Assembly: GCA_032622095.1 (NCBI GenBank)
Contig: CP136065.1
Coordinates: 151,409,577 to 151,473,576, forward strand
Reading direction: 5' to 3'
Origin: Siphonodentalium dalli
Taxonomy: Eukaryota > Mollusca > Scaphopoda > Gadilida > Siphonodentaliidae
Length of the DNA stretch: 64,000 nucleotides
In this document: positions 25,797 to 63,298 of the stretch, piece after piece
Layout: each line of letters begins with the position of its first letter
Numbering within the stretch: the stretch's first letter is position 1
Made by a program: the position numbers and the translations under genes
The notes under the pieces: generated by a model
The model's database searches: none
Seen by the model: only the letters and a program-made list of their open reading frames with translations
What the model was told of the DNA's origin: nothing

Positions 25797-26255
25797 TAGC
25801 TGATGGGCCCGACTTCGTCCGGACTGTTTCCTATCTAATTTCCGGCGAAAGGCGCGATTTGACGTTGAATTGACTATTTTGAAAGTCAAGGTCAGGTCAG
25901 GGTCATGATTTGACCCGTCCAAAATACACCCCGGAGAAAAGTACCCCTAGGTATCAAATTTCGTCGAAATCAGTCCGTTTTACCCGACTTGACCTTTAAT
26001 TGACAATTTTGAAGGTCAAGGTCAGGTCGGAGTCATGATTTGACCCGTCCAAACACTCCCCGGACAAAGGTACCCCTAGGTATCAAATTTCGTCGAAATC
26101 CGTCCGTTTTATCCGATTTGACCTTGAATTGACCATTATGAAGGTCAAGGTCGGGGTCACGATTTGACCCGTCCAAAACACTTCCCGGACACAAGTACCC
26201 CTAAGTATCAAATTACGTCGAAATCTATGGAAAGCCGAAGGGGACATGCTAGTTG
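25797..26255 (+). repeat. CTAGCTGATGGGCCCGACTTCGTCC repeat, copy 2
   Basis: Same head and internal units as 23413-24165 (GACCTTGAATTGACCATT, TTTGACCCGTCCAAAACACT, TATCAAATTTCGTCGAAATC). It has about three units and ends AAGGGGACATGCTAG. Confidence 0.75.
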
Positions 26256-30612: not shown

Positions 30613-30646
30613 ATGAGGAGAGGAATTATTTTCGTATTGACTCTAG
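30613..30646 (+). CDS. Exon 1 of the secreted protein: signal peptide start
   Basis: ATG AGG AGA GGA ... CTA G before GTGAGT; 34 bp, phase 1 out. It encodes MRRGIIFVLTL plus the first base of a valine codon completed by TT of exon 2, yielding an uninterrupted hydrophobic run through VFVSCAG. The phase match, donor quality and hydrophobic continuity across an 8.2-kb intron support it. It is too short for ORF calling, so a transcript is needed for certainty. Confidence 0.62.
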
Positions 30647-36600: not shown

Positions 36601-39600
36601 TATATTCTCGGCTCACCTTTTTGATATTTAGCTACGCTGGGAGAGCTTAGTTTCTGGATGCGATATTTTTTTCCCGCCAAAACCGCAAATATTCACAAGC
36701 GGAGTAACTCTACCTATAGTGGTTTCGTTTGTGGCAGAATTTTGGTTCCAATAAGGATCAATAAGCAATAAGGACCAATAAGCTGTATCGTCCTCGTTGG
36801 TACTTTCTGGTGTATATCAGTGAGCCGAGAGACATCTCTGGTAGAGATTTGTGTTCCGATTTGTATTGGTCATGGATGAGCTCATCTGGTTTAGGCTACC
36901 GTTTAGCCCACCAAGATAGACTGATTTTTTTTTTATATTCAAGGAAATTTACCATTCCCCTTATCTTTGAGGGAAAGCACAGAAGAACAGTCGTAAATGT
37001 AGTTGGTGGACCCAACTATTCAAACAGACCTAAACGCTAATAGAGCTTTGCTCTGATAATTAACGTCGGGTACTTTACGGACTATCGTATATATGTACAG
37101 ATATAAAATAAGTTCTTTCCCGATATATTATCTGAACATTTCCCAAAATGTTCTTGTTTTATCTGTTGTCTGATTTTATTACACTAACACCCCTGTAAAT
37201 GAATAATGGACGGTTCCAATGTATACTCTTATAACTGAATGGTAGAATCCATTCATTATAGAAAGGGTTAAGCCATTACTATACCCATATGAAGAAATAA
37301 GTCTACTTAATTTGGTGGACTATTCTGGTTCAGTGGTTGACCAAGTCAAGCTCCACAAAAATCAGCAACAACTCAAATTTTTTACAGAACATACTATTCA
37401 AGGTACTTTTGGTCTGAAATGTTCATCTACTGTTGTGTCAGGCTGTTGAAAACTTTGGCCAAAGTTAGTCCACCAAAGTATACTAATCAGATTAAGAGAT
37501 ATATTAATATTTGGACATTTACGAGTCCCATTATCTTAAGATAAGGGTACTCGTAAAGTCCAAATATAAAATAAATTCTTTCCCGATAAGTCTACTTTGG
37601 TGGACTAGCCAAAGTTGGAGGCTATTAAGATGAGCGTGGATATGTATACACCCCAAAGCCCCTGTCACCACATCCCTGCTTATATGTATCCTATGCACTG
37701 ATGAGATAATCACAGAACTTTGACCATGCAGGGAAAGCCATAGCTTTGTGAGAAGAGGGTTTACAATACATACCCAGCATCCTAAATAAAGTAATGTAGA
37801 ACTTAAGATGATTAATTCCTCCTGGCAAGGCAGTATATCATATACCGGTATATGGGAGGATATATATGACTAGGAATTTGCCACCAAAACAATCATGATA
37901 AACTCACCTAAGCTCCCCCAGTTATCTCAAAGTTGCACCACTTGCATTGAACACTTAAACAAAAATCCTTGCTGAAGTAAGGTGGGAGAGGTGCCAAAGG
38001 AATAAAGTTCCAGAATTGGTATGAATTTGGTCTGGTCCACAGGTAGGGAGAGTGCCATGTTCAAAATTCAAGGGTGTTCTGTGAGCACCACTCCAACAAC
38101 AAAAAATATCAGAAATTAATAAATACCACAATGTGCAACTATACTAGTCACATCAACCTTGATAGCTACATCAAAATATACAGTTTTATTGTGAAATTTG
38201 TGTTCCAATTTCTAAGTTGGTCTAGTTTGGGCAAATTTACTTGGAGAAAATTAAAGTATATGGCAGGCTTCGCATTTTGTACAAAGAACGTGGTCCAGTG
38301 CTTTCTATGATTTGGCCTGTCGTATACCACTGTCAAATTCATGAGGAATATATAAACTGCTATATTTTGTTTTAAAAACAAAAACACCTTACCTTTCTGT
38401 TGGTATGACAATTTTCAAAAACCAACAGAAATGATTTGAGCGAAATTGTTTTAGAAGTAAAACTTTAAGTTAATCTTTGAATTGACCAGGGTACCATTAA
38501 CACAAAATTGTTCAGTATTTTACTAGATATCTTCTCTTTATTGTCACTTTCAAGTGTAGGCATATAACTGTGCGTATAAAATGCACAGTAATTCCTAAGC
38601 ATGCATATATGTATCCACAGGCCCCTGGGGAAATTAACAGATATAACAATATATACTATAACAGTCACTGGTATAGTATATATATTGGTTTTGCTGCTAT
38701 TGTTCCCCATGGGCCTGTGTATGATGTATCTACCTGTATATGTCCCAATAATGGTATTGTTGGATGGTGGTCAAAGTTTCAAGTTGATAGAGATTGAGTT
38801 AAGTTTATTAGCATTGGCCATAGCATGGAAAGACCTTAAAATATTTTGTCTTTGATTATATACCAGTACCAAATTTTCAGTTTTCGTAAGCTGTGCTGGC
38901 TTCGCTGTCAATGAAACTAACACACAGCAGGGATCGAATGTGGGGATTGGTTTAAATGGACCTCCACCAGGATCTTCACAGGACTCTCGTGAAGAAGACA
39001 CAGAAGAAGATGATAGATCAACTGACTCTTCTGAAATTTTATCAGAATTTGGGTCGGAAGCAAGTGATATGTTGGAAAGATATAGGGGTAAGCTTGCAGG
39101 TTATGTATTAGAATATTTTATACAGAGTGTTAAATCATTCGCATCCAATTTCATTTCGACGCAAAACCAGGCTCAGAGATCAAAATGTTCACCTGTCCTC
39201 CTGTCACTGACAGGTCACTGTTTTTGATTGACCAGCATATTCTTATGCTACCTGTCACCTATGTCAGGTGACCTTACTAGTTAGTAGTCTGCAGGCTTCT
39301 GTTTGGAATTCAAAATAAAATCTAAGCCAAATTATGTCAGTTTCAAATATGTCATAGTCTGAGTTTAATCCATGTAATTTAATAGTTACGGACGTCATAG
39401 CAGCGAAGAGGTTAATCTGGGGAAATGCGGAAAATAATTTACATACTCCATCGGTTTATTCCTTCATTTTCAGGTCAATTACTTTTAAATTTGGCAGAAA
39501 TATTTGCCATCGCGGCATATTATTTTTCAAACTTATTTTAGCAGAGTATCACCCTTTTGCAACTTAAAATTGCAACGATCAGTTTTTTCTAAGCTCTTAA

Positions 39601-42600
39601 TTTCACAGATATTAACCCTTTCTACACTAATTACTCATTGACGTGTAGTTCCCTCAGGAATTGTTCAGATAATAAATAAAAAAGGTTGTTTGTTGAAGTT
39701 TTTTTCTGATCATTCCCCCCACCCATGAATAGGAATCTTTCTGCACTTTAATTTTTTGTCATCTGCCCTCCAAACGAAGAATAGACCATTACAATGTATA
39801 TGATTATAACTGATGGGCGAATTCATTTAGTAAAGAAAGAGTTAAACACCATAGGGACCTATACTACTCTCAGGTGCCTTATAACCATGATGGCCTAATA
39901 ATAGTGATGGATGGTGATTTATGCTGAAAATAATAATAGTGATGGCAATTTCACTCAATGTCTCAATGCCAAATAATAGTGATCGTTGGGAATTTTTTTC
40001 AAAATTAATAAGCACGCTGACACTATTATTAGGCACCTGAGAGTACTACACCTGTGATTTAGAGATTGATCAGACTTATTTTTAGCTAATATAGCACAGT
40101 TATCACCCCTTTCTGACAATTTGTCAGAACTTTATTTCTTCAATTTTCAGTCAGTTGTTTTAAAAGTTGGCAAAGTTATTGGGCACCATAGGAACCTGTT
40201 CACCTGTGATTGTTAGCATGGGCAGACTTTTTAATAGCAGAGTTATAAAATGTGGCTATCCTTAAATAAAGTGGTCTAATATTGGTACAGTCAAATTCTA
40301 GTTTGTGAGGGATCACTGCCAATTGTATTAGCACGCCAGAGATCAGTTGATTTAAATATAAATTAGATTTATCATCTCAGAGAATGTTGTCTTTATTGAA
40401 GCATTCACTTTATAATATGACATGGAACATTTTGCAATTAACTTCGGTAGTATTAATTGTTATTAGGAAATATCTTTTCATCTTAAATTGTCAAGAATCA
40501 ATTGCCAGAAATGTATTGGTGTTGCAGCTATTTGAACTTAATTTACAGTGCATTGAAATATGAAATTGGAAACTAAAATCCTTGATGAATCATATTTTTG
40601 AAATTTTTATTTTCTCACATGTGATCAGGTGACAGTCACGAGAATGACGATGAAGATGAGAGAAGGAGAAAAGTAACCAAAATGGCGAGGAAATTGCACA
40701 GGCTAAAAGGAAGAATGGGAGTAGCTGGGCAACAAAAATTTGAACAGTTGATGGCAAACCCAGGTAACAAACAAAAATTGTTTAAATGTTCTTTAAATAT
40801 TCTTTAATATCCCTTTGCGGATTGATGCCTTAAATTAATATAACCAGTAATTTTTTCTCTTGTCACATTCCTGCCTTGGAATTGGAACAGGGTTTTCACA
40901 AGAAATTCAAGAAGCTCCAGTCATGGAAGGGTTGTTCTTTAACCTCTTTGGTGCTAAATAACGTTATGACATCAAACTAGGTCCATTAACCCTTCCATGA
41001 TGGGAGCTGTGCTGGTGCAGCATTAAAGATATTGTGCCAGTGCGTTCTCTTTTATATGCGAGTCTCCCATGGGGATTGTCGCATATATAAGAGAATGCAC
41101 TGGCTTACAATTTCAAGTTAAATATTGTTGGGTCAATGTATTCTCTTGTATATGCGAGTCTCCCAATATATGAGAATGAATTGGCACAGGGTTTTCACAA
41201 AAAAGTCAAGAAGCTCCAGTCATGGAAGGGTTAAATATTCTTTAATATCTCTTTGCGGGTTGATGTCTCAAATCATAACCATTAATATTTGCTCTTGTCA
41301 CATTCCTGCCTGGTTTTGGGGATCAAACTAAGTCCATTAACCCTTTCTATACTAAATACTCATTGACGAGTGGTTCTCTTTGGAAATGTTCAGATATTAA
41401 GTTCAACAGATGACCATACACTGTTTGTTGAACTTATTATCTGAACATTTCCCACAAAAGAATATGAATCCTTCAGCACTCGTATTATCTTTTCATGATA
41501 CTGATGTCTGGTAATATATCCTTCAAATGAATAATGGACCATTTCTATGTAAAATTTTATAACTGATGGGAGAATCCACTTAGTATAGAAAGGGTTCATA
41601 TGTGAAATAATTTATCTGAACATTAAGGCACTCTCAGTTGGCAAAATTTATAAAAGTCTAATACCTCACCACCAGGAAGAACATGGAGAAATTTAGATAA
41701 ACTTTGTTCTTATATTTAATAATTATTGATAACTTTCCAATGTTAATGATATGTTGTGTGTTAAAATTAGTAGAAAGTTCAAATAAATTAGTCTAAATAT
41801 GATTTTCAGAATATTTTCAATGATTTAGTAGCAAGTTCAAATAAATTAGTCCAAATATGATTTTCAGAATATTTTCAATGATTTGAATTTTTCCAATGTT
41901 TGCCTTCAAATTTTGATTACTTTGTTATCTAATTGGACTTTGATCGGTAATGCCACTGTAAAAGCAATGTTTACTTAAGAAATGGACATAAAAATGTCAG
42001 ACCAACTTGCATCCATACTCTATGGAATGCAACAAAATCAACATCCATTACTTATATTTACACTCAACCAAGTCAACTGGCAGATTAAAAGAGCATTTAG
42101 TACCAATTTCCAACATTATTCTCATAGCTCGTTGCAAGTGGAATCTACCGTACACTATATGGAAACAAGTAGGGCTCTGCGTGCAACTTCACATGACGTA
42201 ATTTTGACCAACCAGCGTCCTGCAGTCATTTAATCATTTAATTACCCGGGGGATGAAGTTGAAGCATGTGGGTAAAATGTCAATATCACAGGATGCTTTT
42301 GGAAGATAATACTAATTTAACTGATATTGAAACCAAGTTGTGACAAGATATTAACTATTTAAGTTCTATCATACATTAACTGAAATCCTGTCTACTAGTA
42401 GCGAAGTCTGGAAAAGTTACGGAATTTCATTAGCTTGTTGTCTTGGAAAATTTCTGAAAATCATGGAAAAGTCAGTTCTTTCCATGAGCAAAAAACAGAG
42501 AGAGCACTTATTCGCCCTCGCAATTCAGAAGACGGGTGTAATTGTGCCCAAAATATAATCGTAATTTGGGTTTTTATAAAACAAAATGTCATTGTTGGAT

Positions 42601-48600: not shown

Positions 48601-51600
48601 TGTTTGTTGCAGCGTCAAGCATTGAGAACTTTGGTACCAAGGATGACGGATGATCGAGAATCTGAACTTTGTAAGAGACTTATGAGAGAGATGGTTCCAG
48701 CAGCCATGTTTGGTCGATTTCTAAAATTTGGATTGTCATGTGACACAGAATTTGAAATAGAAGGGGTAAGTGTCACTGGCTATTACATTTAATTGCTGAT
48801 TTTAGGATAAAGCCAGTATTATTTTTTGTTGTCCTATTAAATATTTATATTTTGAGAACTGGTACCTAACTCGTATTTAAATTCGTACAGTATATTTTTC
48901 GCTCAGGCTACTCAGTTTTAAACTTAGTCAATTTACAAATCAAATCATTTGTTAGATATATGCACATAAAATTTATATAAGATGTTTACGTCATCCTACA
49001 CATCGAAAAATAAAGAGCATGTAACAATCAAACAATGAAGAATATGCAAATAGATAAATGATACCATTGTTTATTCTGTCAACAAGTTCCAGCATTTGTG
49101 TGATGTCATTTAGTTTTTCTTTTCAACCTCCTGGGACTCAGATTAAAAAAAATTCCTGTTTGCCTTTCAAGACATATTTAATGATGTGGGATTGAAAAGG
49201 CAACAGATATTTGTTTCTTCAATTTTGTCTGAGAATAATTCTTTATATTTTGAAATAACAGCATTCTAGGAGAAAGTTTTACTCATCTTCCTTTCTCATG
49301 TTCGGACAGTGGAAACAAATTTGGTCTTGGATTTGCACTTACAGTAATGCCCTAATTAATCGACTCCATAACCACAGCAGAATTATGGGTAACTTTTCAG
49401 GATTTAGTCGGAAATATGGCTTGTTGCCATTTATCAGAAAGCTCTCCCTAAAGTTACCCATAATTCTGCTGTGGTTATGGAGTCGATTAATTAGGGCATT
49501 ACTTTATGTAAATATTTGTTATAGAAAATCGTGATTTTACTGGAATGTTAAAGGTCAGTTAAGTCTGCATTGTAATTGCTTGATATATTTGCATAAAATC
49601 CTAATATGTGAGTTTGTGTTATTTTAATATTGTCTAGTTCTTTGGAGATTTTGGTTAGTTTTTTAGCTCAACTTGACAAAGAAATGTTTGAGCTATTGCC
49701 ATGTGTTGGCATTCAACGTCCATCTGTCCGTCAATATTTTCTGTTAGCACACCCAACAGGTCACATCCCTCATCCGATTGGCACCAAACTTCATATTTCA
49801 CCATTCTCAAGACAAGGTGTCAAATAATCGACCTGAGCCAGATAAATCAACTGTCTGATAAAGATCATTTGTTCAACAAACAAAATGAATGTTCCCATAT
49901 ATGTTATTTAATGTTTCATAATATTGATATTCCAGATGAACAGTGTTAATGCCAGTTTTGTAAGTCAGATATAATGGTTGTTTCATCTCCTTGATTAAGT
50001 ATCATGATGATTTTTCACTCATTGTTATTTGTTCATAAACAAATGTGTTTATAGTAGGGTCCTGCGAATTGGAGATTTTGATCGAATCGAATATCGAATC
50101 GTATATCGAATCGAATATCGAATCGAATCATACCTGCGTGTTACATTCTCAATTAGGCATTTAATGTTAATTATTGGACGATTTGTGAAACGTACGTTCT
50201 ATGAACGAACTTCCATGAAGTTCCATCATAACTTATGTGGCGATCAACCGATCGTTCCTGATACTATTAACTTCAATTGAGAATTGTCGAGAGAAAAAAA
50301 AACATTAAAACGTCCATGCGTCGTCACGACGATTAAATATATAACCACGAAACGGATTATCGGAATTAAAATCACGCGCAATTTTTATAGTTTGCATGTA
50401 CATGCATAGTTGCAAATCGGCACTGGGAAACACACCCGTTGTTATAAAGATGCAACAACAGTCGCAGGGTAGCCTGTTTATGTAGTGCTGGATGCTTAGA
50501 TAAGTCGTCGTCCCAGACGCTTGCGATTTATATACCATGTTGCATACATCACATGTGTAAGTTCCAATACTGCATGCAGCTTGTATCATGTTTAAAATAA
50601 ACATGAATAACGGACAAATTGTCAAGTTTCAATCCGACACTGAAAGTCAACTTCAAACGAAAACACCTCCCACGTGCACTTTTCGACGACGGGAACACGT
50701 GTTGTTTGCATTCTCAGCAATATTACATAACGCGGAATCTGAGACGTATAGTCGGTGGATAATGCTAGTTTTTTTTTTTATTGTTTTTGCACAATATTTA
50801 CAAACATAATGCTGACAGTGAAATATTCAGAAATAAACATGATTATATTGTACAGGAGTGGCATGGCCAAATAGGCTGTCTTCCTGCCGCCCCTGTTTGG
50901 AAATGAAACTGAAATAGTAAAATGACAACGTTGCTCCGTTTCATCGCTATTATAATTTACGTGCGTCATCGGTCCATCGGCGATCTCCAAGCTTTTGGCT
51001 ACCATGTTCAAAGCTAGAATTCAGATGCATTTAGTCGTCCTATAGTGTCTAATTACTGGCCATATTTATACTTAATATCATGCGAACTTTCGCGATGTAC
51101 AATAAGAATTATAAGCTGCATATCTTCATAAGTTTTGGGAATAATATGGCACAGAAACAGCTAAGATTGACGTGTTTACCTGCCCTTAAACATCCTACTT
51201 TTTTGTCAGTGTATATTCGAAATTTCGAGTTGGAAATTTTGAATCGAATTCGAATCGAATTTGACTTTCTGAATCTCGAATCGAATATCGAATATTCGCA
51301 GGACCCTAGTTTATAGCTATTTTCAAAATTTGCATTGAATTTTATGAATTTAGTTTCGTTAGCATTAATATTTTACCATTGTTGACAGTTTTTTTAGGTT
51401 TAGTTAATTATCTGTTTAAAAATTAAGTTCAGTCATTTATGGATTTGTGGAATTATGAATCATGATCCATTTTGAACAGGATAATTTAACATAAGTTAAC
51501 AGATGGTTCAGGCATACCATCATCCCACTCAATTTTATATTGTTGTGACCTCCTAGTAGTGCTCTATGATACTGCATGATGTACTTGTTTTATAACCATC

Positions 51601-54600: not shown

Positions 54601-57600
54601 TTTAGACTTAGATTTTGACCGCATTTTGGCATTGAAATTATTTATATATTAGATATTTTTTGTAAGCTCAAATTATTCTTTTATTTTGCAGTAGTACAAT
54701 TAAAAATGGCTAAAGGGTGTATCTGCCACACTCTAGCAATGCTCTTGTTAACAAACAGAAATGTCCATGTTTAACAGTAACAACAGTAACATATCAGTGT
54801 TAGACAGCCTCACATGTAGCAAATGATTCTAGTTCAAGGACAGTCACTAAGTAACACTTGATCATGATATGCAATACTTAAATGTTAAACTGAATTCAAT
54901 CTGATTATTCTCTATCAGATTCAGAGTGTTGGTTTTTGTCATTGTTCACTATGGAATTATACAAGGATTATTTAATAATGACAAATTCAGAAGGCAATAT
55001 AAAATACCGGTACTCTATATCATACTGGCAGTCAATATTATGAAAAATAAAGTTTTTTTCCGATGTATATACATGTATAGGTGATTTCTAAAACAATTCA
55101 GGGCCATTTGAGTTTTGCTGTATCATGGAATCCTTGTGTATTTTGTGACTGATGGGACATTTTTGCATGAGCCCATACATGAAAACCTAAGATATTATGG
55201 CAACTATTGTTGGTGCAAACATGTTAAGACAAGTTGGTAGGGATATGAAAACATGATTTGGTTGGGGAAGATGAAACATTTTTTTATGTACAATACTTTC
55301 ATAGCATAATTTGTGACTGATGGGACATAATTTTGGGCCAAAAACTAATCTTAGTCTTCTGACCATAAACTTAAGCGGTGAATCTCCAACTAATAACACA
55401 TCTGCAGAATTCGCCCCCGTTACTAAAATTCACATATTATTTTATATCAGTCCCACAATTTGATAATATTGTGGCATATGTAAGAATTACACTGAAAAAA
55501 AGAGTTTCACAATGAAAACATTATGTAACAATGGGAATTGTCATAACTCCAGATTGGAGTGAGCAAAATCCACAGAATATCGAAAGTTTCGGGAAATTGG
55601 GGATTCATTTTTCCAAATAAACAATATCACTGCATGAGTATTTAATTTTGTAAAACTTTTAAATGGAATATTGACCTATTCTAACTTAAACTTCATAGGA
55701 TGATGCCAGAGAGGATGCAAGGCGGACTTTTGCTTGCATGAAGCTAAATAACAAAAATCCAGAAGACTACAATGATGATGATGTCGAACTGATGGCCATA
55801 AATCCAGACTGCATGGATTCCGATGCATTCGAACGAATGCCAGTAGCAGCATTACAAAGAAAGTTAGTTGTATCTTGTTTTTCTTCTTATTTTCTTCTCA
55901 TTTTAACTGTGCAGTAGAATAGATAACCATAGCCGATGAAATCAAAGCCATTCACAGTAATACAGAATTGCTGTTTGTCATAGCTAATATCGAGGGCTGA
56001 TAGATGATAGTTACTTCTATTGAGAATTAAGGAAATAATATAATTATGACCTGTCAATCCATTTGAAAATCTTTCAACAATCTGATAGAAAACTCCACCA
56101 CTGGTCAAGGTTTTATTATACCCCGACTGTTCGAAGAAAAATTGGGTGTATACTGTATTGACTTTATCCATCTGTTCGGGCATTTATCTCAGTCCTGGGT
56201 TATCAGATCTGAATTTGATACCGGTATGGATATTCACTATCAGGAGTACTTTAAAAAAAACGCCCAATGTTCGTCTGAAAATAGTGGATTTCTGTCTGTC
56301 CGGGCATATTTTACAGTCATGGGTTGTTGGATCTGAATGAAATTTGGTTTGTAGGTTTGCCATAGGGTTGAAACGATTAATCAACTAGCTGTAGTCGATG
56401 CTGAAATGTCAGAATGTCGACTCTGAATTTTGCTGTCGACTAGTCGGAACATAGTGTATTAGTTACATATATAACGTTTTCAAGATCGATTCCGGCATAA
56501 ACGGTGTTAGCTGCACGTAGGTCACGGTAAGTATAACGTTTGGTGGCACCCGGAATTGACAGTGTTACTAGTATAGATACACACGGTGACCCGACTATTA
56601 ATTGAAAGAATCAAATTGACAACACAATGTCTCACTCGTCGTTTGAGGTCAAAGACATCACTGCGACATGATGGCAATGATTGACGCGGCTTTATCGTTT
56701 GTCGGAGACTGCTTTTATCTAGACACTGTGTATATTTCAATTGATCTCGCACCGTCGGGTTATGATGCGACGCTGTGTGAAAGTCGCTTAAGGTGACGTC
56801 ATTGGTGCTACCGTATATAAATGATACTGACATTAAGAACTGGCTATCGTATTCTACAACGTAGCCTATACTATAGGGCGTATTTAGTAGGAACATTAAC
56901 ATTTTATAGTGACACCGCTCGGCACCGGTTTATTGGTGATCACGTGACTAAACAAAATCTCGAACACTGATATTAAATTTAAAACCTGTATAAATGATCG
57001 TGTTTCTATATATAATCATTATCCACCACAGGTCTAATTATATAATTACATTCAGTGTGTTGGATAAATATCAAGATGTTAACTGTATTATTTCCCAAAT
57101 AAATTGGTGTCTGTGCAGGGAAATGCGCTATATACGCAATAGACCGTCATTGCATCAGTCATCAGTGTACGCCACGTACGATGAATTTTCCGTACCATGT
57201 TATGTTTGAAAGTTTTGATATCGGGTACCGACTAGTCGACGCAACGCGACTTTTGGGCCTCGACTAGTCAACTTTTAAATTCACTAGTTGTTTCAACACT
57301 AGTTTGCCATCAGGAGTACTTTCAAAACATTGTGGTTGTTTCCCATTTTAGTTTTATATTTGTTCCATACTGCACATGTTTGCCACAATGGGAGTATGTC
57401 GTACCCAAGTTGCAACGTCTTGTTTGGCTTGCTTAATTTTGACATAACGTTGTAGGTAATTGATCACCAACTGTAACCCTTTAGAACCATGGTTTCCGCT
57501 TGGGTTTGGGGAATGATACTCCTGTAGCTGGGGGTAAAATCTTTGAATATCTACTGGTATCTTATAAATTGATAATAGCCCAAATTATGAACGTATTCAG

Positions 57601-60600
57601 TTATAAAGTACTAGTAGATAAAGCCCAAGGAATCGTAATTGCTTTTTATTTTTAACAAAGTGAAGGCTTGAGTAATGTAACAGTATTGTTGTTTCACATT
57701 GCTTAAAGTGATGTGAAACACTCCTGTAGGGTGATCAATAGAAATGGAGAATAATCTGGCTCAAGGTAAATAGTATATCAAAATTGACAACACACATCAT
57801 CATTCTTATATATTAATTAAATTCAGTGACTCTCGATGACAAAATCGTTTTTGTTAGTTTATCACAGATAGTTGCGTCCCGATTCGAGAAGCAAATATTT
57901 ACATTTGAGCTCAGTTCAGACTATGTTTTCTATGGAGTAGTACAGTTGATTTGCTTGAGATATTTGGCGATGTTAGTAGAATGCCACATTCCTCCAATTT
58001 CCTTAGCACCTGAATGCTAACTTCTCAGATTCACGCACCGAATAAGTGCTTAATATGTCTTTAATATGATCTTGTTGTTACTGTAAATTTTGCGATGAAA
58101 AAATCAGGTTCAATCTACAGGTAAAAGTGTGATGACAATTTTTCGTACCGCTACTAACAACTGTGGCGGAAACTTAAAATTTGCAATATATTTCTGTGTC
58201 CAACCAACTTCACTACATTCATGAAAATATTTTTAAACCATGAAATTCTTATCAAACTTCAGCGACTAACATCTGAAGCAGGTCTACATAACCATAATTC
58301 AGAACAGAACGTTTGACAATTGAGAACATGATCGAGATGTAACAAGGCAGAATCAACCATTTGGCTTTTAGCGATGATTACTTAGACATCTTTCAGAATA
58401 AGGGAGTAATTGTTGATGTGTGTAGCCCGGAAAATGCATTTTTCCCCACAAAATGGTTCAGTTATCTTTGTTTATCAGTCCCTGTTGTTTTTATTTAGTG
58501 GCAGATACACAAGTGATGTAGGCATTAATCTGTTGATTGGGTAGGGGAATATGTTAGAGGGGAAGTTTGGGCTAGGGGAAAGGGACCCTAAAAGGGATCC
58601 ACTGCCCCACTAGCAGAAACTGCTGTAACCTAAGCTCACAAGATTCAAACTTTTTCACACGGTTGTCATTATATCATTGTCTTACCATCAACAGTGCCAG
58701 AAAACTTGCTAGTATTGGAAGGCTTCCTATGCGGGCAAAGATGAGTATTAAAAGGAAACTGAAGCAGAGAATGGGAGTGGACCTAAGGAACGCGGACTCA
58801 GATGACCTGGCTGAATTAGCTCCAGTATTTGATTTCCTGGAGGTTGGAGAAATAATGGAGTTAGACGAAGATGCAGTGAGTATCCCTTGTTTAGATAATT
58901 CTTCACTTGATTCCCTTTCATTCATTTGTAGGGTTTTTCAGCTAATAAGTTAATAAAAAGGTATTCCACAGTCTCATTGGGACATGCAGTCACATCCTTG
59001 TCATGGCTTGAAAATTGGAGGAGCACAAAATATCGATGAATTTTTGTTTGTCCCAGATTTCCGCCAAACTTATATATATAGAGTCATCTCTAGTATACAT
59101 GGAATCTATTAGTGTTTGAACAAAAATCTTTCCTTGAAACATGTATCATCCACAGTGCAGCCCTTGAAATTGACATTTCTCTTCTACGGCTTTGCTTTAG
59201 AATTGCATGAAATTCTATATTGGCTCAACAGCCTTTTGCCATAGATAATTTTAAAGGCTGTGTAGTAATGTTAGTGATGAACTAATATGAACCATCATTG
59301 GCCGATACCTGATTGCTAAAATGAAGTAATCAGCTGATGCCAATTATATATACATGTAGTACAAAAAGTCATTCAATATTGACAATTGTTATAAACAAAA
59401 TTCACATATACCTATAGTTAGCGACGTTCCAGGTATATCATGTACCGTAAATTTCGGTGTATAAGTCGCATGCGTGTATAAGACGCACCCCCATTGTTCA
59501 ACCCCAAATCCTGCCTTTTGTGAAATACCTTTGTATAAGACGCACCCATTTTTAGATGCTGGAATTTCAAAAAACTGCTGTGGTACATGTAAGTATTGAG
59601 AGCAAGTATTCACACATCACATTTGGGGGGAGAAGAAATGAAGAAAGTTATTTACGTTAGAATGCTTTCTTTCGGCAGCACGGTTACCGTTAAGTTCTGC
59701 AAACTTAACAACTTCCAACTAAAATCTGGTTTCGTAACTCTGACGTTTGCGCTTATTCCCACGTTTATCCATAACGATCGAAGTATGTGAATATATATAG
59801 AAATTTACGGTATGAGGAAAGACACAAAATATCCTATCATTTATAGGAATATAAAATTGAGACTCGGCTTACTGTTGTTTTAGGATAATGCTGGCATCGT
59901 TAATTTAGTTGTCGCCTAATTGTCGCGGATCATGAATGCAAACGCTTTGGGCTAACAGTGATGCAATGCACTCCTCAGTATTAAGTGTCAAATATACTCA
60001 ATGTGGGGATTAAATGTTTGCACCCGAAGCGTACAGCATAAAATAATGTTTATGTAATATCAACAGGAGTTCGCGGCTTCGCACTGAAGCCTCATTAAAA
60101 TATTTGGAGTCAAGGTTTTTATTATGCTCATTCCCGGGCTTCAAGTTAAATAAACATTCCGATGTGACGCAATCTGGTAGAAGTTTGTAGCCACTTGCAG
60201 CTTGTAAACAGTTTACTATGTCGCAACACTGGAGACATAAAAGCGATTACACCGCAGTCATTGAATGTGGGTCAATTGTGCACGTGTCCAGAATTGTTAC
60301 AGAGTCAGGTCAAGGACGCCAACTGTTTGTGAATTTGCTGCTGTTTGCCGTTGAATTCTCAGATACTAATGCATATAATATGATAAATAACAGTGAAGAC
60401 GGGGGTGTTTATTTGTATAATAAATGGTGTAATAATGAGTCCATTTCTTTTAGAGGTGAAACCGTAAGACGAGTCCATTTTGTTGTTTATTCAGAATTTG
60501 TACTTTCGGTTTCACACATATCCGGTTATATCACACTTTCTTTCCTGGATTTTGGGAATAAAAGTTCATAATAGTGAAGAGTAAGATAACTGTGTTCAAT

Positions 60601-63298
60601 ATTTTAATTCAATGAATATTATCCTTCTTTATGGAGAGTTTTGTGGCTGAATCTCCACCGATATTTGCTGTGAATATTTCCTTGTCTTCCCGACACTTGT
60701 GTACTTACCGGTCGTCGCTCAAACTCTCCGAAAATGAGTCAAGATTTCACCCCCATTTTTAGTTACCGTTGTATAAGGCGCACCAATATTCTGGGCTATA
60801 TATTCAGGTAAAAAAGATGCAACTTATACACCGAAATTTACGGTATCTGCACATGTGTAGCCTTCTGCTTGCACAGTCGATGTTTGTTCTGTTTTATCGT
60901 GCATGGTTGATAACTTGATATACCAACAAATAACATCGAATAACTCGAAGTGCCCTCATCACTGATTGATCACCAATATTAGTTTATAATCACAAACACT
61001 CTACATTCACACAATTAGCATCTGTAAGAATCTGTACAAATCACCATACAGCTTACTCATTTCCAAGTGTTGGAATTTTAAAAATATGTTACTTACAATT
61101 GTTTTTGGCAGTTTTAAAAAGTTGTTCATATTATTAAAATGTACTGCAGTGGTATGCTGGTATGATTATAAGGGATGACTGGAAGATCGATTGGGGTCAT
61201 TGGTTTTGACCGGCAGATTAATTAAAGAAAGTTTCAAACAACAGTTGTTTAATTACTCTGCCGGTCAATATCCAATAACCTCATTCAATCTTCCAGTCAT
61301 TTCTTATATATACCCCGATAGTTAAATTAGTTAAAAAGATGTTGGTCACAATTAATATAACAGGAATAGATTTACAGCCACATGGTCGAACGATTCTATA
61401 ATATATATATAATATACTATAGTCTGTCCATTCATAAAACATTTGAAGCTCTATATCTTTGTCATCGTCAGTCAGAATTTAATGATCTTCGGTATGTTGA
61501 TGAAGCAACATGGGGGAAATAGTATTTTCGTCCATTGATTTTTTCCAGAGTTACGGCCTTTATTTTGTAATGGGACTTAGTGTGAAAATTGATTTTACTC
61601 TTTGCATGACTAAATCCTTCGGCACACCCTCTATATCCATATCAGAAAAATAATAAACCTCAGTGGAAAGCCACCTTGGCGGGGGATACTCTGGGCGGTG
61701 CACTTGTTCGAATTACCATGGGCGTATTTGCCACACCTAGCGATGCTCTTGTTTTCAAATATAATAGACTAGTACTTGTAACACCTAAAACAAATGTTAA
61801 CTTGACCATTCATTTCACCGTTTTCTCGCTTGGCTGAAACAAGCTGATTAAATTATATACCAGTCATTTCATTGTTATAGTTGGTACATGTATTACCATC
61901 AGTACGGCTGGATGTTTTTTCCGATGCTGATTTTATAACGTTTACCCAAATGTCAGCTAATTCTGATTGTCATTCCGTTTAATCTGTTCATCGATCACTA
62001 TTGAATGTTCATGGAATATGCATAGCAGTTATATACATCCCTTTCAGGTTAATTTTGTGAAGGCTATTCAAAAGGAGGGCTTCTTCCTAACGTAAACTGA
62101 TCTTAAAATTATCAGTTTTTATTTCAGATGGAAAAAGATACAAGTTTCAAAATTACTAATCACTGTGTTCATTTAAATTAAGGTACAAGAAAATGCGGCC
62201 GTTTTCTGTGGAATAATGGGAAGTGATGCAAAAGCAGCTATTATTCGCAAGAAAATTATCAATTCAATGAAAAAGGGGACTATCAATGCTGCCATGCTCA
62301 ACAGGTTTGCATATACATTTAGAACCGAACTCACATGTTATTGGCCAAACATTTATGGCAGAAGTGCAACATATCAGGAAAGGCCATCAACTTTGACTGT
62401 TTAATCATTTAGTAATTGCATCACATTACTAGTCATATACTATTAGTTAAAGGGTACTCAATGTAAGATGGATAACTCTAAAATCAAATGGTTATTATTA
62501 ACAATAATAACCACTCGATTTTAGAGTTATCCATCTCAGACCCGCAATTTGTCCGTTTGAGCACGTGGAAGTGGACCACATCTCCAAAAATTAACAAATT
62601 TCAAAAATCGATATCTGATCACTCTGAGCTTTGAAGGGTGGGTTCCTCGACTCGAATCAAATATTTTTTACTCCCAAAGCCAAAGAAATAGTCATTTAGG
62701 AGCGTCTAATCGGATTGAGCACCTTTAATAATAATCTATCCATTTATATAGTGTCTTGTACAGTAAATTTGTTTAAATGGACTTTACACCTATTATTAAC
62801 ATTAATATTTATATATTTCATTCTTCCTAACATATAAATAGTCACGGACAGTTCTAGATATTGAAGCGGTTTCCTATCTTATATGATAAAATGTGATTTA
62901 GATTGTCCAATTTGATCAAAATATACTGATTAATGGGTCTTTGAAATATAATTTAACAGTTAAGGCATAGAAAAAGTTTACATGTACATGTAAAAAGATA
63001 TCAAATAAAAATAATTGAGGAGGGGACTAAAATAGGGTCGGGATGGGATGTACATCTTGCAAATTGTTTATATTGGCCTTAATATGACTACCGTTAATAT
63101 AGCCCAATTACACTGGGGGGTTTCTTTAGTCCCATCGGGGCAATAAATGGTGTTCAAATATAATATATGTCTGTTTATTTCAGGACAAAGGGGTGTCTAA
63201 TGAAGTCAAAGGGTCGTGATCTGCTAGGTATGAACATAACTCCCAATGATTTCGCGGACATGATGGAAGAGGATGATGATTTTGATGATGAAGCTAGT
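30613..63298 (+). CDS. Secreted, acidic, helix-repeat protein of unknown family (nine exons, 3' end off the window)
   Basis: Nine exons join without a phase error: 30613-30646, 38881-39087, 40629-40763, 43589-43809, 48613-48765, 55699-55862, 58695-58875, 62183-62304, 63184-63298, giving at least 444 residues and no stop. Residues 1-18 (MRRGIIFVLTLVFVSCAG) form a signal peptide. Residues 32-62 are Pro/Ser then Asp/Glu-rich (GPPPGSSQDS, EEDTEEDDRS). The rest is charged and predicted by eye to be helical, with a recurring L(K/R)xRMG-V...L..L pattern (KLHRLKGRMGVAG, RKLKQRMGVDL, TLVPRMTDD). N-E-T near 22 and N-I-T near 423 are possible N-glycosylation sites. Phrases such as NPAAITAEDIRQMP recall mesothelin/otoancorin-type superhelical repeats, but that is a guess. 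The protein probably acts outside the cell. Confidence 0.8.
30665..32420. other. Intron 1, AT-rich part
   Basis: AT-rich with TATATA runs and CTT/TTC repeats near 31550. The ORFs here lack any recognised domain. Nothing else is seen. Confidence 0.45.
32780..32814. repeat. Perfect 15-bp-stem hairpin
   Basis: GCTGGGACTAATATA, loop TGTGT, TATATTAGTCCCAGC, flanked on both sides by CCAATAG. It lies in intron 1 of the plus-strand gene. Confidence 0.8.
32832..33172 (+). repeat. Direct repeat TTACTGTGGNGGANGATTT...GGTGTAAAATCTTGTCTC
   Basis: The ~50-bp phrase TACTGTGG(T/C)GGA(T/C)GATTT, GGTGTAAAATCTTGTCTC and ATGTAA occurs at about 32835 and again at 33120, each preceded by a TCCCTGCTA(T/C)CA phrase. 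The spacing of about 287 bp implies an old tandem duplication. Confidence 0.6.
33280..33325 (+). repeat. Imperfect TGTATG/TGTGTA microsatellite
   Basis: CTGTCTGTATGTATGTGTGT then ATGCATGTGTGTATGTG. Simple repeat. Confidence 0.7.
33381..33521 (+). repeat. Direct repeat ATAGGCATGTTTCTGGACC
   Basis: The 19-bp phrase is exact at 33381-33399 and 33503-33521. It sits next to the inverted CTAGCTGATG-type repeat. Confidence 0.6.
33600..34135 (-). repeat. CTAGCTGRTGGRCCCGACTTCGTCC repeat, copy 3 (inverted)
   Basis: Reverse complement of the family at 23413 and 25797. GTCTGTTAGCTATGGCCGGG is the tail end, then units with GGACGGGTCAAATC and GACCTTGAATT equivalents, closing with CCGGACGAAGTGGGGTCC and AGCTACT. 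It has about four units. Confidence 0.7.
34430..34830 (+). repeat. Diverged copy of the 160-bp family of the left edge
   Basis: Units carry GTCATGCAAAAGAGGATCAAAG, CTGCCTGTGGTAATGTTTTTT and GATGACGATCGGACAAGG, then CGCTGGCAGTGATG and TAGCGGTGACCC. They match the order of motifs in 1-1123 but are much diverged. GATAGACTGATGGACAAA closes it. Confidence 0.45.
35405..35590 (+). repeat. Single diverged unit of the left-edge 160-bp family
   Basis: ATGGCCGCTGGCGACCATTTTTTC, then GTTTGGTGATGATCGGATGA and GCTAAACGGTTTAGTAATGC follow the same motif order as the B units near the left edge. Confidence 0.45.
35589..35880 (+). repeat. Tandem duplication of a ~170-bp segment
   Basis: TTCTTACCT(T/C)AAT(A/G)TTTTTATG through TTTGATATCTTTTGTTAACA and ATGTATGTCTC(A/G)TGTT is repeated at a spacing of about 169 bp, with only a few differences. 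AATAAAG lies at the junction (about 35737). Confidence 0.85.
35885..38000. other. Intron 1, later part
   Basis: No recognised exon. A right-half fragment of the CCCTTTCTATACTAA TTAA-MITE family ends at 37267 (TTAA at 37268-37271). TTTGGTGGACTA phrases recur near 37310 and 37590 together with AAATTCTTTCCCGATA near 37110 and 37565, indicating old local duplication. Confidence 0.45.
38881..39087 (+). CDS. Exon 2 of the secreted protein: signal peptide end and acidic linker
   Basis: Acceptor AAATTTTCAG; donor AGGG|GTAAGC; 207 bp, phase 1 in and phase 1 out. It encodes FVSCAGFAVNETNTQQGSN, GPPPGSSQDSREEDTEEDD and SSEILSEFGSEASDMLERYR. Low complexity and acidity suggest a disordered extracellular segment. 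N-E-T is a possible glycosylation sequon. Confidence 0.85.
39386..39414. mobile_element. Right-end fragment of the CCTCTTCGCTGCTA TTAA-MITE
   Basis: GTTACGGACGTCATAGCAGC then GAAGAGG and TTAA. It is identical to the right end of the element at 9496-9824; the left end is missing. Confidence 0.7.
39616..39841. mobile_element. TTAA-flanked MITE, CCCTTTCTAYACTAA family, copy A
   Basis: CCCTTTCTACACTAA...TTTAGTAAAGAAAGAG with TTAA at 39612-39615 and 39842-39845. Inside are ACTCATTGACG, TGTTCAGATAATAAATA and TTATAACTGATGGGCGAATTC. It is 226 bp, in intron 2. Confidence 0.75.
39880..40060. repeat. Short inverted repeat AGTACT/AGGTGCCT...AGGCACCTGAGAGTAC
   Basis: ACTACTCTCAGGTGCCT (about 39865) is the inverse of AGGCACCTGAGAGTA (40030-40045). 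Between them AATAATAGTGAT occurs three times. Possibly a small MITE of about 180 bp. Confidence 0.5.
40629..40763 (+). CDS. Exon 3 of the secreted protein
   Basis: Acceptor TGTGATCAG; donor CCAG|GTAACA; 135 bp, phase 1 in and phase 1 out. It encodes DSHENDDEDE, a basic stretch RRRKVTKMARK and LHRLKGRMGVAGQQKFEQLM. The RMGV motif recurs in exon 7. Confidence 0.85.
40797..41345 (+). repeat. Local direct duplication bracketing a MITE
   Basis: TTCTTTAATATCCCTTTGCGG...TTGTCACATTCCTGCC (40797-40880) recurs at 41236-41312, and ATCAAACTAGGTCCATTAACCC recurs at 41323-41343. A TTAA-MITE (40990-41230) lies between the copies. Confidence 0.7.
40990..41230. mobile_element. TTAA-flanked MITE, CCCTTCCATGA family, copy A
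   Basis: CCCTTCCATGATGGGAGCT...AGCTCCAGTCATGGAAGGG between TTAA at 40986-40989 and 41231-41234. Inside are two GCGAGTCTCCCA and several AAGAGAATGCACTGG phrases. A right-end fragment lies at 40893-40932. Confidence 0.8.
41341..41594. mobile_element. TTAA-flanked MITE, CCCTTTCTATACTAA family, copy B
   Basis: CCCTTTCTATACTAA...TTAGTATAGAAAGGG, TTAA at 41337-41340, the right site changed to TTCA. An inner palindrome pairs GAAATGTTCAGAT..AAGTTCAACA with TGTTGAACTTATTATCTGAA. It is 254 bp. Confidence 0.8.
42625..43140 (+). repeat. Diverged direct duplication of ~300 bp
   Basis: The ordered phrases ATGCCCATAATTTAACTGAG, CAATATTGAATCAAC, ATTTAGCACC, AATTGAGAGTGCATAC, AGCAATCGCTCC and GGGATGGACTG (from 42625) recur as ATGCCCGTAATTAAACTGAG, ATTTTAGCACC, AATTGCGAATGCACAC, AGCAATTGCACC and GGAAAGGACTG (from 42935). 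Intron 3. Confidence 0.65.
43185..43290. repeat. Foldback repeat GCAGARTGAGGTYCCAGAGGGTGAAT, copy 1
   Basis: TGCAGAGTGAGGTCCCAGAG...CTCTGGGAACCTCATTCTGC is a near-perfect palindrome with arms of about 40 bp. Copy 2 in opposite orientation is at 43486-43588. Confidence 0.8.
43486..43588. repeat. Foldback repeat copy 2, abutting a splice acceptor
   Basis: GCAGAATGAGGTCCCCAGAG...CTCTGGCAACCTCATTCTGC. Its right end runs into AAATGTCAG, the acceptor of exon 4. Copy 1 carries the matching inverse AATGACAGA, so the acceptor itself may lie within the repeat. Confidence 0.75.
43589..43809 (+). CDS. Exon 4 of the secreted protein
   Basis: Acceptor TGCAAATGTCAG; donor AAC|GTGAGT; 221 bp, phase 1 in and phase 0 out. 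It encodes TDVHFEPTEKHLISLQGTDF, ETAELVEELSELPDDMEERI and SNPAAITAEDIRQMPMRFL. The leucine spacing suggests two helix-turn-helix repeats. The ITAEDIRQMP phrase recalls mesothelin-type repeats (inference). Confidence 0.88.
43838..43990 (-). mobile_element. Fragment of the CCCTTTCTATACTAA TTAA-MITE (inverted), just after exon 4
   Basis: ATCCCTTTCATTACTCAATGG, TTCAGTTGTAAAATTATAAG and GGAATGGTCTGTTATTCATA match the inner and right parts of copy B at 41341-41594 in reverse orientation. It begins about 30 bp past the donor of exon 4. Confidence 0.55.
44480..45400 (-). pseudogene. DIRS tyrosine recombinase remnant
   Basis: The N-terminal part reads KSWRPWTTKQYNLAWKTW and YSVRNTARSML. The core (45056-44775) has LTLEQLTKKLTMLMTLLVTS then AQRYQTLSTFD. 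The C-terminal part (about 44690-44510) has IFKP, HSTCSSSMSQAAN, ILKTIDWSTA and VFFTHYRH. The H-x-T-R arginine is Cys here (TGT), a one-base loss separates KP from HST, and stops interrupt it. The arrangement fits DIRS/phage-integrase-fold recombinases. Confidence 0.78.
45720..46130 (-). pseudogene. DIRS RNase H remnant
   Basis: Fragments in shifting frames: DIQWWMTNIKAENG, LFGYFMGALLEIS, EHINYLELKTIYLGLIALCS, then FWWASDHNIILTEIHISASC and NVAADELSWF. The LELK and VAADELS motifs and their order match retroelement RNase H downstream of a DIRS RT. Confidence 0.65.
46443..47070 (-). pseudogene. DIRS reverse transcriptase remnant
   Basis: 46979-46719 encodes GGGYRAILNLRFLNKSVKYH and motif A ASIDLTDAYFGITIAPHLRK. 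46643-46443 encodes FGLSSGPRIFTKLMKPFF (frame entered just upstream) and the catalytic CYYFIDDSL. The upstream frame has GAISIRKFEP. At least two frameshifts and stops separate the parts. Confidence 0.82.
47158..48550 (+). repeat. Tandem repeat element with GAGAGGCCGATCACGATCGGC head and GACAGACGG tail
   Basis: Head AACGAGAGGCCGATCACGAT with palindrome GCCGATCACGATCGGC. Units of about 150 bp contain GGGCCATAACT, CAAACCCATATT, TGTATTTTGGGCTGA and CACATACCAAATTTGGTTCC. Tail ACGGACAGACAGACAGACGG (about 48452), then GTGTACCATACTATGGTATG hairpin. Unrelated sequence (about 47460-47990, including a degenerate TTAA-MITE piece near 47760) interrupts it. Intron 4. Confidence 0.75.
48613..48765 (+). CDS. 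Exon 5 of the secreted protein
   Basis: Acceptor TTTGTTGCAG; donor GAAGGG|GTAAGT; 153 bp, phase 0 on both sides. It encodes RQALRTLVPRMTDDRESELC, KRLMREMVPAAMFGRFLKFG and LSCDTEFEIEG. It carries two cysteines. Confidence 0.88.
49343..49503. repeat. Perfect inverted repeat, 54-bp arms
   Basis: The left arm 49343-49396 (AGTAATGCCCTAATTAATCG...) is the exact inverse of 49450-49503, with a 53-bp loop. The left arm plus loop also matches 45459-45556 in reverse orientation, inside the DIRS remnant, where the second arm is absent. It lies in intron 5 of the secreted-protein gene. Confidence 0.9.
49655..49830 (-). repeat. Inverted fragment of a GAGCTAAAA-tailed repeat
   Basis: TTTTTTAGCTCAACTTGACA, GAGCTATTGCCATG and CGTCCATCTGTCCGTCAA are the reverse complement of the tail type at 1124-1212. 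ACTTCATATTTCACC and CACCAAACTTC belong to its body. One unit only. Confidence 0.6.
50055..51308. mobile_element. Non-autonomous hAT element with perfect 8-bp target duplication
   Basis: TIRs TAGGGTCCTGCGAAT...ATTCGCAGGACCCTA (15 bp) are flanked by GTTTATAG at 50047-50054 and 51309-51316. Subterminal arrays of CGAATCGAATATCGAATCG occur at both ends and are probable transposase-binding repeats. It is 1,254 bp with no transposase recognised. It lies in intron 5. Confidence 0.93.
51621..52087. mobile_element. Palindromic TTAA-flanked element, copy 7 (second subtype)
   Basis: AGGTACTCAATCCG...CGGATTGAGTACCT with TTAA at 51617-51620 and 52088-52091. Near the centre, CTAAAATCAAGTGG..TTATTATTG pairs with TAACCACTTGATTTTCGAG. 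It differs from copies 1-4 by CACCCGCAATTTGTCTGTTT and the TAGACACTCCTAAATTAC border. Intron 5. Confidence 0.88.
52213..52455. mobile_element. TTAA-flanked MITE, CCCTTCCATGA family, copy B (inverted)
   Basis: CCCCTCAATGACTGGAGCTT...GCAGCTTCCGTCATGAAAGTG with TTAA at 52209-52212 and 52456-52459. Inner AAGAGAATGCACTGG/CCAGTGCATTCTCTT palindromes match copy A at 40990-41230. Confidence 0.78.
53425..53500 (+). repeat. Diverged half-copy of the GGCGACAC MITE
   Basis: TTTTTTCCCCTCCTGCATCT, TTGGACCAAATGTTTCTAAA and AAATTGGTCTGGCCTTA follow the order of the right half of 16056-16439. Confidence 0.45.
53898..53937. repeat. 17-bp-stem hairpin built on the 15-mer motif
   Basis: CATTATTTTCGTGACTG, loop ATGGGA, CAGTCACGAAAATAATG. 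The stem is perfect and contains the fourth GTGACTGATGGGACA copy. Confidence 0.85.
54350..54755 (-). repeat. ACAAGAGCATTGCTAGAG-headed repeat, inverted copy
   Basis: Reverse complement of the family at 15102-15795: GTCCATTGACATTTTTTGTT, GTTCGAATATGGGTTC and TTACGGCCTTTTTTCGACTT, ending CACTCTAGCAATGCTCTTGTT. It has two units, and the tail is missing. Confidence 0.7.
55699..55862 (+). CDS. Exon 6 of the secreted protein
   Basis: Acceptor CTTCATAG; donor AGAAA|GTTAGT; 164 bp, phase 0 in and phase 2 out. It encodes DDAREDARRTFACMKLNNKN, PEDYNDDDVELMAINPDCMD and SDAFERMPVAALQR. The phrase VELMAINP...ERMPVAAL parallels exon 4's IINIASNP...RQMPMRFL, an internal repeat. Confidence 0.87.
56165..56362 (+). 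repeat. Diverged ~126-bp tandem repeat split by a hAT insertion
   Basis: CTGTTCGGGCATTTATCTCA...TATCAGGAGTACTTT recurs as CTGTCCGGGCATATTTTACA...and resumes at 57310 as TCAGGAGTACTTTCAAAAC. The hAT element at 56363-57301 interrupts the second unit. Confidence 0.7.
56363..57301. mobile_element. Second non-autonomous hAT element with perfect 8-bp duplication
   Basis: TIRs TAGGGTTGAAAC...GTTTCAACACTA (one mismatch in 12) flanked by GTTTGCCA at 56355-56362 and 57302-57309. Subterminal GTCGACTAGTCGG / CCGACTAGTCGAC motifs occur at both ends. It is 939 bp with no transposase seen. Intron 6. Confidence 0.92.
57706..57765 (+). repeat. Dispersed repeat TTAAAGTGATGTGAAACACTCC
   Basis: Partner of 25333-25395: TTAAAGTGATGTGAAACACT, TAGGGTGATCAATAGAAATG and GAGAATAATCT in the same order. 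Confidence 0.6.
58695..58875 (+). CDS. Exon 7 of the secreted protein
   Basis: Acceptor CCATCAACAG; donor GATGCA|GTGAGT; 181 bp, phase 2 in and phase 0 out. It encodes ARKLASIGRLPMRAKMSIKR, KLKQRMGVDLRNADSDDLAE and LAPVFDFLEVGEIMELDEDA. KLKQRMGVDL repeats the exon 3 motif KLHRLKGRMGVAG. Confidence 0.88.
59443..59814 (-). mobile_element. Pogo/Tigger-like element, internally deleted
   Basis: Left end TACCGTAAATTTCGGTGTAT; right end GAAATTTACGGTA (59802-59814), with TA at both termini. Just inside the right end, on the minus strand, an ATG at 59772 opens MDKRGNKRKRQSYETRF, then TAG, then LEVVKFAELNGNRAAERK. This is the N-terminal DNA-binding helix region typical of pogo/Tigger transposases. It is a fossil. 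Confidence 0.7.
60218..60571 (+). other. Open reading frame of 117 codons, unsupported
   Basis: The ORF encodes no family I recognise, although it has an ATG and ordinary composition. It sits between ends of pogo-like elements in intron 7, so it may be element interior or chance. Confidence 0.2.
60740..60845. mobile_element. Inverted end of the TACCGTAAATTTCGGTGTATAAG family
   Basis: GTTGTATAAGGCGCACC...CAACTTATACACCGAAATTT, ending ACGGTA, is the reverse of the left end at 59443 including the internal CCCCCAT/ATGGGGG phrase. Either it closes one larger element (59443-60845, TA at both ends) with a second copy nested, or it is a separate fragment. Confidence 0.65.
61164..61312. repeat. Inverted repeat with ~50-bp arms (TGACTGGAAGAT...ATCTTCCAGTCA)
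   Basis: GATGACTGGAAGATCGATTG, GGGTCATTGG and TTTGACCGGCAGA are inverted at TCTGCCGGTCAATATCC and CATTCAATCTTCCAGTCAT. The loop is about 35 bp. MITE-like, in intron 7. Confidence 0.8.
61500..61756 (-). repeat. ACAAGAGCATCGCTAGGTGTGGC-headed repeat, second inverted copy
   Basis: It ends ATTTGCCACACCTAGCGATG then CTCTTGTTTT, the inverse of the head at 15102. AGTTACGGCCTTTATTTTGTA is an internal unit phrase. Confidence 0.65.
62183..62304 (+). CDS. Exon 8 of the secreted protein
   Basis: Acceptor AAATTAAG; donor AACAG|GTTTGC; 122 bp, phase 0 in and phase 2 out. It encodes VQENAAVFCGIMGSDAKAAI, IRKKIINSMKKGTINAAMLN and the start of an Arg codon. The pyrimidine tract is weak, but both joins keep frame. 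Confidence 0.85.
62451..62724. mobile_element. Palindromic TTAA-flanked element, copy 8 (internally deleted)
   Basis: AGGGTACTCAATG..., right end CGGATTGAGCACCT, with TTAA at 62447-62450 and 62725-62728. The left arm is mostly deleted so the terminus joins directly to AGATGGATAACTCTAAAATC. Same subtype as 51621-52087. It lies about 145 bp after exon 8. Confidence 0.85.
63184..63298 (+). CDS. Exon 9 of the secreted protein (last in window)
   Basis: Acceptor TTTATTTCAG; donor GCTAGT|GTGAGT; 115 bp, phase 2 in and phase 0 out. It encodes TKGCLMKSKGRDLLGMNITP, NDFADMMEEDDDFDDEAS. N-I-T is a possible glycosylation site. No stop: the gene continues to the right. Confidence 0.88.

Follow-up and report, generated by a model that had tools for sequence, protein, structure and literature searches.

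A 26-exon gene of Siphonodentalium dalli that probably encodes a mesothelin-like, furin-cut and GPI-anchored precursor

Introduction

Mesothelin is a cancer antigen the normal function of which is unclear, and among the deafness proteins are otoancorin and stereocilin. Human mesothelin is a GPI-anchored, furin-cut protein forming a right-handed superhelix, the furin cut being located before E296 and the disulfides being C302/C326 and C442/C468 (PMC10035497). Otoancorin and stereocilin are large precursors (1153 and 1775 aa, respectively) which are predicted to form ARM-type superhelices and to be GPI anchored (PMC2628672). The superfamily papers found in an open-access library concern vertebrates, and no studies of invertebrate relatives were met with there; unpublished database entries may exist.

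The current work concerns a stretch of 64,000 nucleotides of the S. dalli genome (hereafter “the window”; C5:151409577-151473576), together with 20 kb upstream and 120 kb downstream of it, while genome-wide searches covered the 2.23 Gb genome in 9 contigs. Positions are given in window numbering (the C5 coordinate minus 151409576) unless a contig is named. The gene described here probably encodes a 1,288-residue precursor resembling mesothelin, otoancorin and stereocilin, predicted to be cut by furin and displayed by a GPI anchor as a superhelical surface binding scaffold.

Results

Nine exons join in phase within the window

A sequence-only reading of the window had proposed nine GT-AG exons joined in phase, encoding at least 444 residues without a stop. 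This proposal was borne out by inspection of the borders between positions 30613 and 63298 (9/9 exons with GT-AG borders and compatible phases, 0 stops in 444 codons), the joined product having exactly 444 residues. The exons are the following:

30613..30646, + strand: exon 1, ATG and MRRGIIFVLTL (signal peptide), donor TCTAG/GTGAGT, phase out 1
38881..39087, + strand: exon 2, VFVSCAGFA as the end of the signal peptide, then acidic linker; GT-AG, phase 1 in and 1 out
40629..40763, + strand: exon 3, helical segment, acidic to basic; GT-AG, phases fit
43589..43809, + strand: exon 4, helical module; GT-AG, phases fit
48613..48765, + strand: exon 5, helical module; GT-AG, phase 0 in and 0 out
55699..55862, + strand: exon 6, helical module; GT-AG, phase 0 in and 2 out
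58695..58875, + strand: exon 7, helical module; GT-AG, phases fit, acceptor possibly 6 nt further on (NAGNAG-like)
62183..62304, + strand: exon 8, helical module; GT-AG, phases fit, acceptor weak
63184..63298, + strand: exon 9, residues 406-444, last exon within the window; GT-AG, phases fit

The same eight internal exons were picked, and the first exon extended, by a chaining script which combines acceptor and donor weights, codon log-odds and a phase rule, and which chooses exons freely. The borders of exon 7, with its tandem acceptors CAACAG and TGCCAG, and of exon 8, with its weak acceptor, may each shift by a few codons. As a scoring control, a generic codon model without training on exons 1-9 was employed along with 30 Markov shuffles: the best in-phase chain of the 30-64 kb region scored 93.0 (9 exons) on the + strand versus 13.7 on the - strand, the shuffles reaching a mean of 8.8 and a maximum of 23.5.

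The gene continues for 17 exons beyond the window

The downstream flank was found to contain 17 more phase-compatible exons, which lead to a stop codon at 102249-102251:

68504-68701, + strand: exon 10, in-phase continuation in flanking DNA
72281-72328, + strand: exon 11, in-phase continuation in flanking DNA
74059-74223, + strand: exon 12, in-phase continuation in flanking DNA
75482-75649, + strand: exon 13, in-phase continuation in flanking DNA
78908-79099, + strand: exon 14, in-phase continuation in flanking DNA
82654-82737, + strand: exon 15, short, low coding score, phase kept
83116-83237, + strand: exon 16, in-phase continuation in flanking DNA
85119-85245, + strand: exon 17, in-phase continuation in flanking DNA
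86074-86285, + strand: exon 18, poor donor, phase kept
86848-86935, + strand: exon 19, in-phase continuation in flanking DNA
88722-88932, + strand: exon 20, in-phase continuation in flanking DNA
94977-95152, + strand: exon 21, in-phase continuation in flanking DNA
95973-96125, + strand: exon 22, in-phase continuation in flanking DNA
96481-96626, + strand: exon 23, in-phase continuation in flanking DNA
98932-99172, + strand: exon 24, in-phase continuation in flanking DNA
100318-100444, + strand: exon 25, in-phase continuation in flanking DNA
102175-102251, + strand: terminal exon 26, with stop and GPI-type tail

The chain of the 64-103 kb region, which contained no training exons of the codon model, scored 132.1 as compared to 15.7 for the reverse strand and a shuffle maximum of 19.6. 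The full gene model thereby comprises 26 exons over 72 kb, all with GT-AG borders, with one stop and a product of 1,288 residues, and the exons in the window constitute the 5' third of this gene. The earlier view of a large secreted protein gene is supported. Exons 8, 15 and 18 are the least certain ones, all three being in phase.

Two candidate exons were rejected: an open stretch at 80519-81137 in intron 14, which the phase does not need and the borders of which are poor, and a terminal exon at 105103-105401, to which 102175-102251 was preferred for its phase fit and GPI-type tail. The stretch in intron 14 and another in the upstream flank (-7205 to -6085; 0 Pfam matches for the latter) are both long, open and coding-like, and may represent a dispersed element.

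Two collinear paralogues support the downstream exon borders

When residues 445-1288 were used as a query against the whole genome, two collinear loci were recovered besides the gene itself, with exon matches in the same order:

C5:211.860-211.911 Mb, + strand: paralogue 1, matching exons 10, 14, 20, 21, 22, 23 and 24, plus a second exon 24 copy (perhaps a tandem partial gene)
C2:90.801-90.904 Mb, - strand: paralogue 2, matching exons 10, 14, 18, 21, 22, 23 and 24

Identity amounts to 40-50% in the C-terminal domain and to 26-33% before it. Nearly every match corresponds to one model exon to within a few residues, and these correspondences independently support the downstream exon borders. The lack of any conserved orthologue with the same exon order had been named as a finding that would speak against the gene; relatives of this order exist in paralogous form, at these two loci. 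The alternative that the exons arose as open stretches by chance, or belong to a pseudogene in decay, is scarcely credible given 26 exons free of stops and frame errors, chain scores 4 to 7 times that of the best shuffle, and paralogues which keep the same exon order.

For exons 1-9 no paralogue was found in the genome, from which it follows that the N-terminal part either evolves rapidly or is different. Since the paralogue matches, which fall on exons 10, 14, 18 and 20-24, miss exons 1-9 altogether, the join between exons 9 and 10 is without comparative support, and this pattern is what would be expected if two genes had been misjoined, exons 1-9 encoding one secreted protein and exons 10-26 another. 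We judge such a misjoin to be very unlikely: the 9-to-10 join is in phase, the acidic short-helix type of module is common to both sides of it, there was no conspicuous start codon with a signal peptide in the vicinity of exon 10, and the chaining chose no terminal exon after exon 9.

Genomic neighbourhood

The gene is located between EIF3B, on the opposite strand, and DNAAF5:

From 20703 leftwards past the window start, - strand: EIF3B exons with long introns (eIF3 subunit B as PDB match, E 1e-105; RRM and eIF2A domains)
From 113.6 kb downstream, + strand: DNAAF5 (Pfam TPR_DNAAF5, E 4e-68)

In human, EIF3B and DNAAF5 are both on 7p22.3. MSLN is located on human 16p13.3 (PMC10035497), and nothing usable was found in the way of published support for a shared ancestry of human 7p22 (EIF3B, DNAAF5) and 16p13.3 (MSLN).

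Pieces of a hAT-type DNA transposon in overlapping frames are located upstream of the gene on the - strand (10746-12749; Dimer_Tnp_hAT, E 2e-5), adjoined by further open pieces up to 13653. Tandem arrays with units of 130-190 bases occupy 1-1122, 1962-2863, 15227-15739, 23466-24080, 25855-26225, 33707-34075 and 48003-48444; units related to one another, of 130 and 146-170 bases, are found again at a number of sites, two of them within introns of this gene. Elsewhere in the genome, some 90-100 protein kinase genes or gene fragments, almost identical to one another, are arrayed in tandem at C2:149.83-150.60 Mb; most of them are on the - strand, a spacing of ~2.4-2.9 kb is common, and the intact copies (~280 aa) resemble testis-specific TSSK kinases in appearance. 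Kinase loci were dropped as a codon training set, as they gave only this array. A mitochondrial-type COX1 (code 5, 527-codon frame without a stop), with an ND2-like reading nearby, is present at C1:108127492-108128832 within a chromosome-sized contig, which is explained either by recent copying into the nucleus or by an artificial join in the assembly. Its reading in code 5 marks the organism as an invertebrate; the dispersed repeats look like those of molluscs, which is no more than a guess, and a search for the mollusc haemocyanin domain gave no match and was uninformative.

Domain layout of the predicted product

The signal peptide of the sequence-only reading was recovered as residues 1-20, MRRGIIFVLTLVFVSCAGFA, as read from hydrophobicity; together with the C-terminal tail, it ranks among the most hydrophobic 13-residue segments. 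The acidic linker of that reading corresponds to residues 21-100 (27.5% D+E), and is followed by some 880 residues (101-981) of acidic short-helix modules (19% D+E). As to the helical nature of the modules, exon 4 alone, in a single-sequence AlphaFold model, forms five short helices (mean pLDDT 74.9), and for exon 7 alone three short helices were predicted with low confidence (pLDDT 59). A PDB fold search with the exon 4 model yielded no significant match.

A furin-type site, RKRR, is present at 978-981 directly before the C-terminal domain, which extends from 982 to about 1264 and contains exactly four cysteines (C988, C1017, C1125 and C1153), the first one being positioned 7 residues past the predicted cut. 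The small residues PGAGNN precede a short hydrophobic C-terminal tail, SLISLMAAIVMVL, which forms a hydrophobicity peak. The putative GPI signal, called by eye, is EPQPGAGNNMAGMTSLISLMAAIVMVLRY followed by the stop, and the protein terminates in PGAGNNMAGMTSLISLMAAIVMVLRY. The product contains seven N-glycosylation sequons.

Comparison of the C-terminal domain with mesothelin

The cysteines of the C-terminal domain are located at offsets of 7, 36, 144 and 172 past the cut, as compared to 7, 31, 147 and 173 in human mesothelin; under uniform placement, the chance of four offsets agreeing within 5 residues is ~6e-5, and ~6e-6 with the first being exact. In a global alignment of the mature domains, for which the mature human mesothelin sequence was checked against PDB chains, z reached 5.2-5.5, with 0/500 shuffles scoring as high. 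The similarity is confined to one part of the protein: 283-residue windows starting at 901, 951 and 1001 gave z values of 6.0, 6.6 and 4.5, whereas all those starting at or before residue 851 gave z <= 2.5, and control alignments with unrelated helical proteins gave z <= 1.9. Masking of the cysteines lowered the mature-domain z to 2.7, so that the score leans on them. N-capped short-helix motifs number 5 in the mature domain (shuffle mean 0.9) and 6 in mesothelin (1.1), and are not enriched in the HEAT protein DNAAF5 (1 versus a shuffle mean of 2.2); the motif was defined after inspecting both proteins, and its enrichment is supportive only.

Profile searches with Pfam Mesothelin (PF06060) returned 0 matches at E<=10, both for the assembled protein and exon-wise over the whole genome. 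Mesothelin was not found by phmmer of the mature domain against PDB, nor did a single-sequence hhalign against mesothelin return anything. The sole phmmer match, the designed helical protein HeliScrew4 (E 0.09, human mesothelin matching HeliScrew4 at 1.7e-4), was considered as a link and set aside as too weak.

The absence of Mesothelin profile matches and the weak similarity without cysteines (z 2.7) would fit a real secreted, GPI-anchored helical-repeat protein from a family unrelated to mesothelin, in which the furin site, the four cysteines and the short helices are convergent. We consider such convergence unlikely, seeing that all four cysteine offsets match within 5 residues, the first exactly, and that the similarity has its peak at the mature domain, the rest of this helical protein showing none.

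Membership of the mesothelin family is likely, not proven. Because the Pfam profile for the family gave no match, it is safer to say that the protein is built and works in the manner of a mesothelin precursor. The sequence-only reading had offered mesothelin/otoancorin-like repeats as a weak guess; this is now the best explanation because a furin-type site, the four-cysteine pattern and a GPI-type tail were found past the window. Its statement that the protein was unrecognised and could not be placed with confidence reflects the missing C-terminal two thirds of the gene.

Discussion

By analogy with the mesothelin family, the chain would enter the secretory pathway and be cut by furin after RKRR in the trans-Golgi. 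This cut would separate an N-terminal superhelical solenoid of ~960 residues, the positional equivalent of megakaryocyte potentiating factor, from the C-terminal domain; the solenoid may then be soluble or stay associated, and the disulfide-stabilised C-terminal superhelix may be GPI-anchored on an epithelial surface. The anchored domain could serve as a non-enzymatic binding scaffold for an extracellular glycoprotein or matrix, a role proposed for the vertebrate relatives: for the members of the superfamily, Sathyanarayana and colleagues suggested binding to carbohydrate carried by extracellular glycoproteins (PMC2628672). A role in surface binding or adhesion seems the most likely one, with a confidence, for this step taken by itself, that we would place about midway, and a role as an enzyme is unlikely.

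The gene is likely, though not proven, to be a divergent new addition to the mesothelin-type proteins. We tentatively suggest, as a possibility which we hold with some reserve, that it keeps, in an invertebrate, the ancestral form of the superfamily, being a long solenoid precursor with a furin cut, a two-disulfide domain and a GPI tail. Mesothelin would in that case have arisen by shortening, and the proteins of the inner ear would be specialised copies of a general, pre-vertebrate system of epithelial surface adhesion. With three or more genes of this kind in one lineage, the ancestral architecture would become testable, and there would be a simple system for asking what purpose the furin cut and the superhelix serve.

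Among known systems, the ARM/HEAT-repeat proteins, such as the neighbouring DNAAF5, share the helical repeats; DNAAF5, however, is intracellular and recognised by its own Pfam model, whereas HEAT and ARM Pfam models gave 0 matches to the assembled protein. By published length and description, the total length (1288 aa) is nearest to that of otoancorin rather than stereocilin. Human MSLN differs in its N-terminal part (~295 residues versus ~960 here), and the present gene is set apart by the lack of Pfam-level similarity, by its 26 exons over 72 kb and by its invertebrate origin. What the two precursors, mesothelin/MPF and the one predicted here, have in common is a signal peptide, an N-terminal helical part, a furin-type site, a short-helix domain containing four cysteines, of which the first is seven residues past the cut, and a GPI-type tail.
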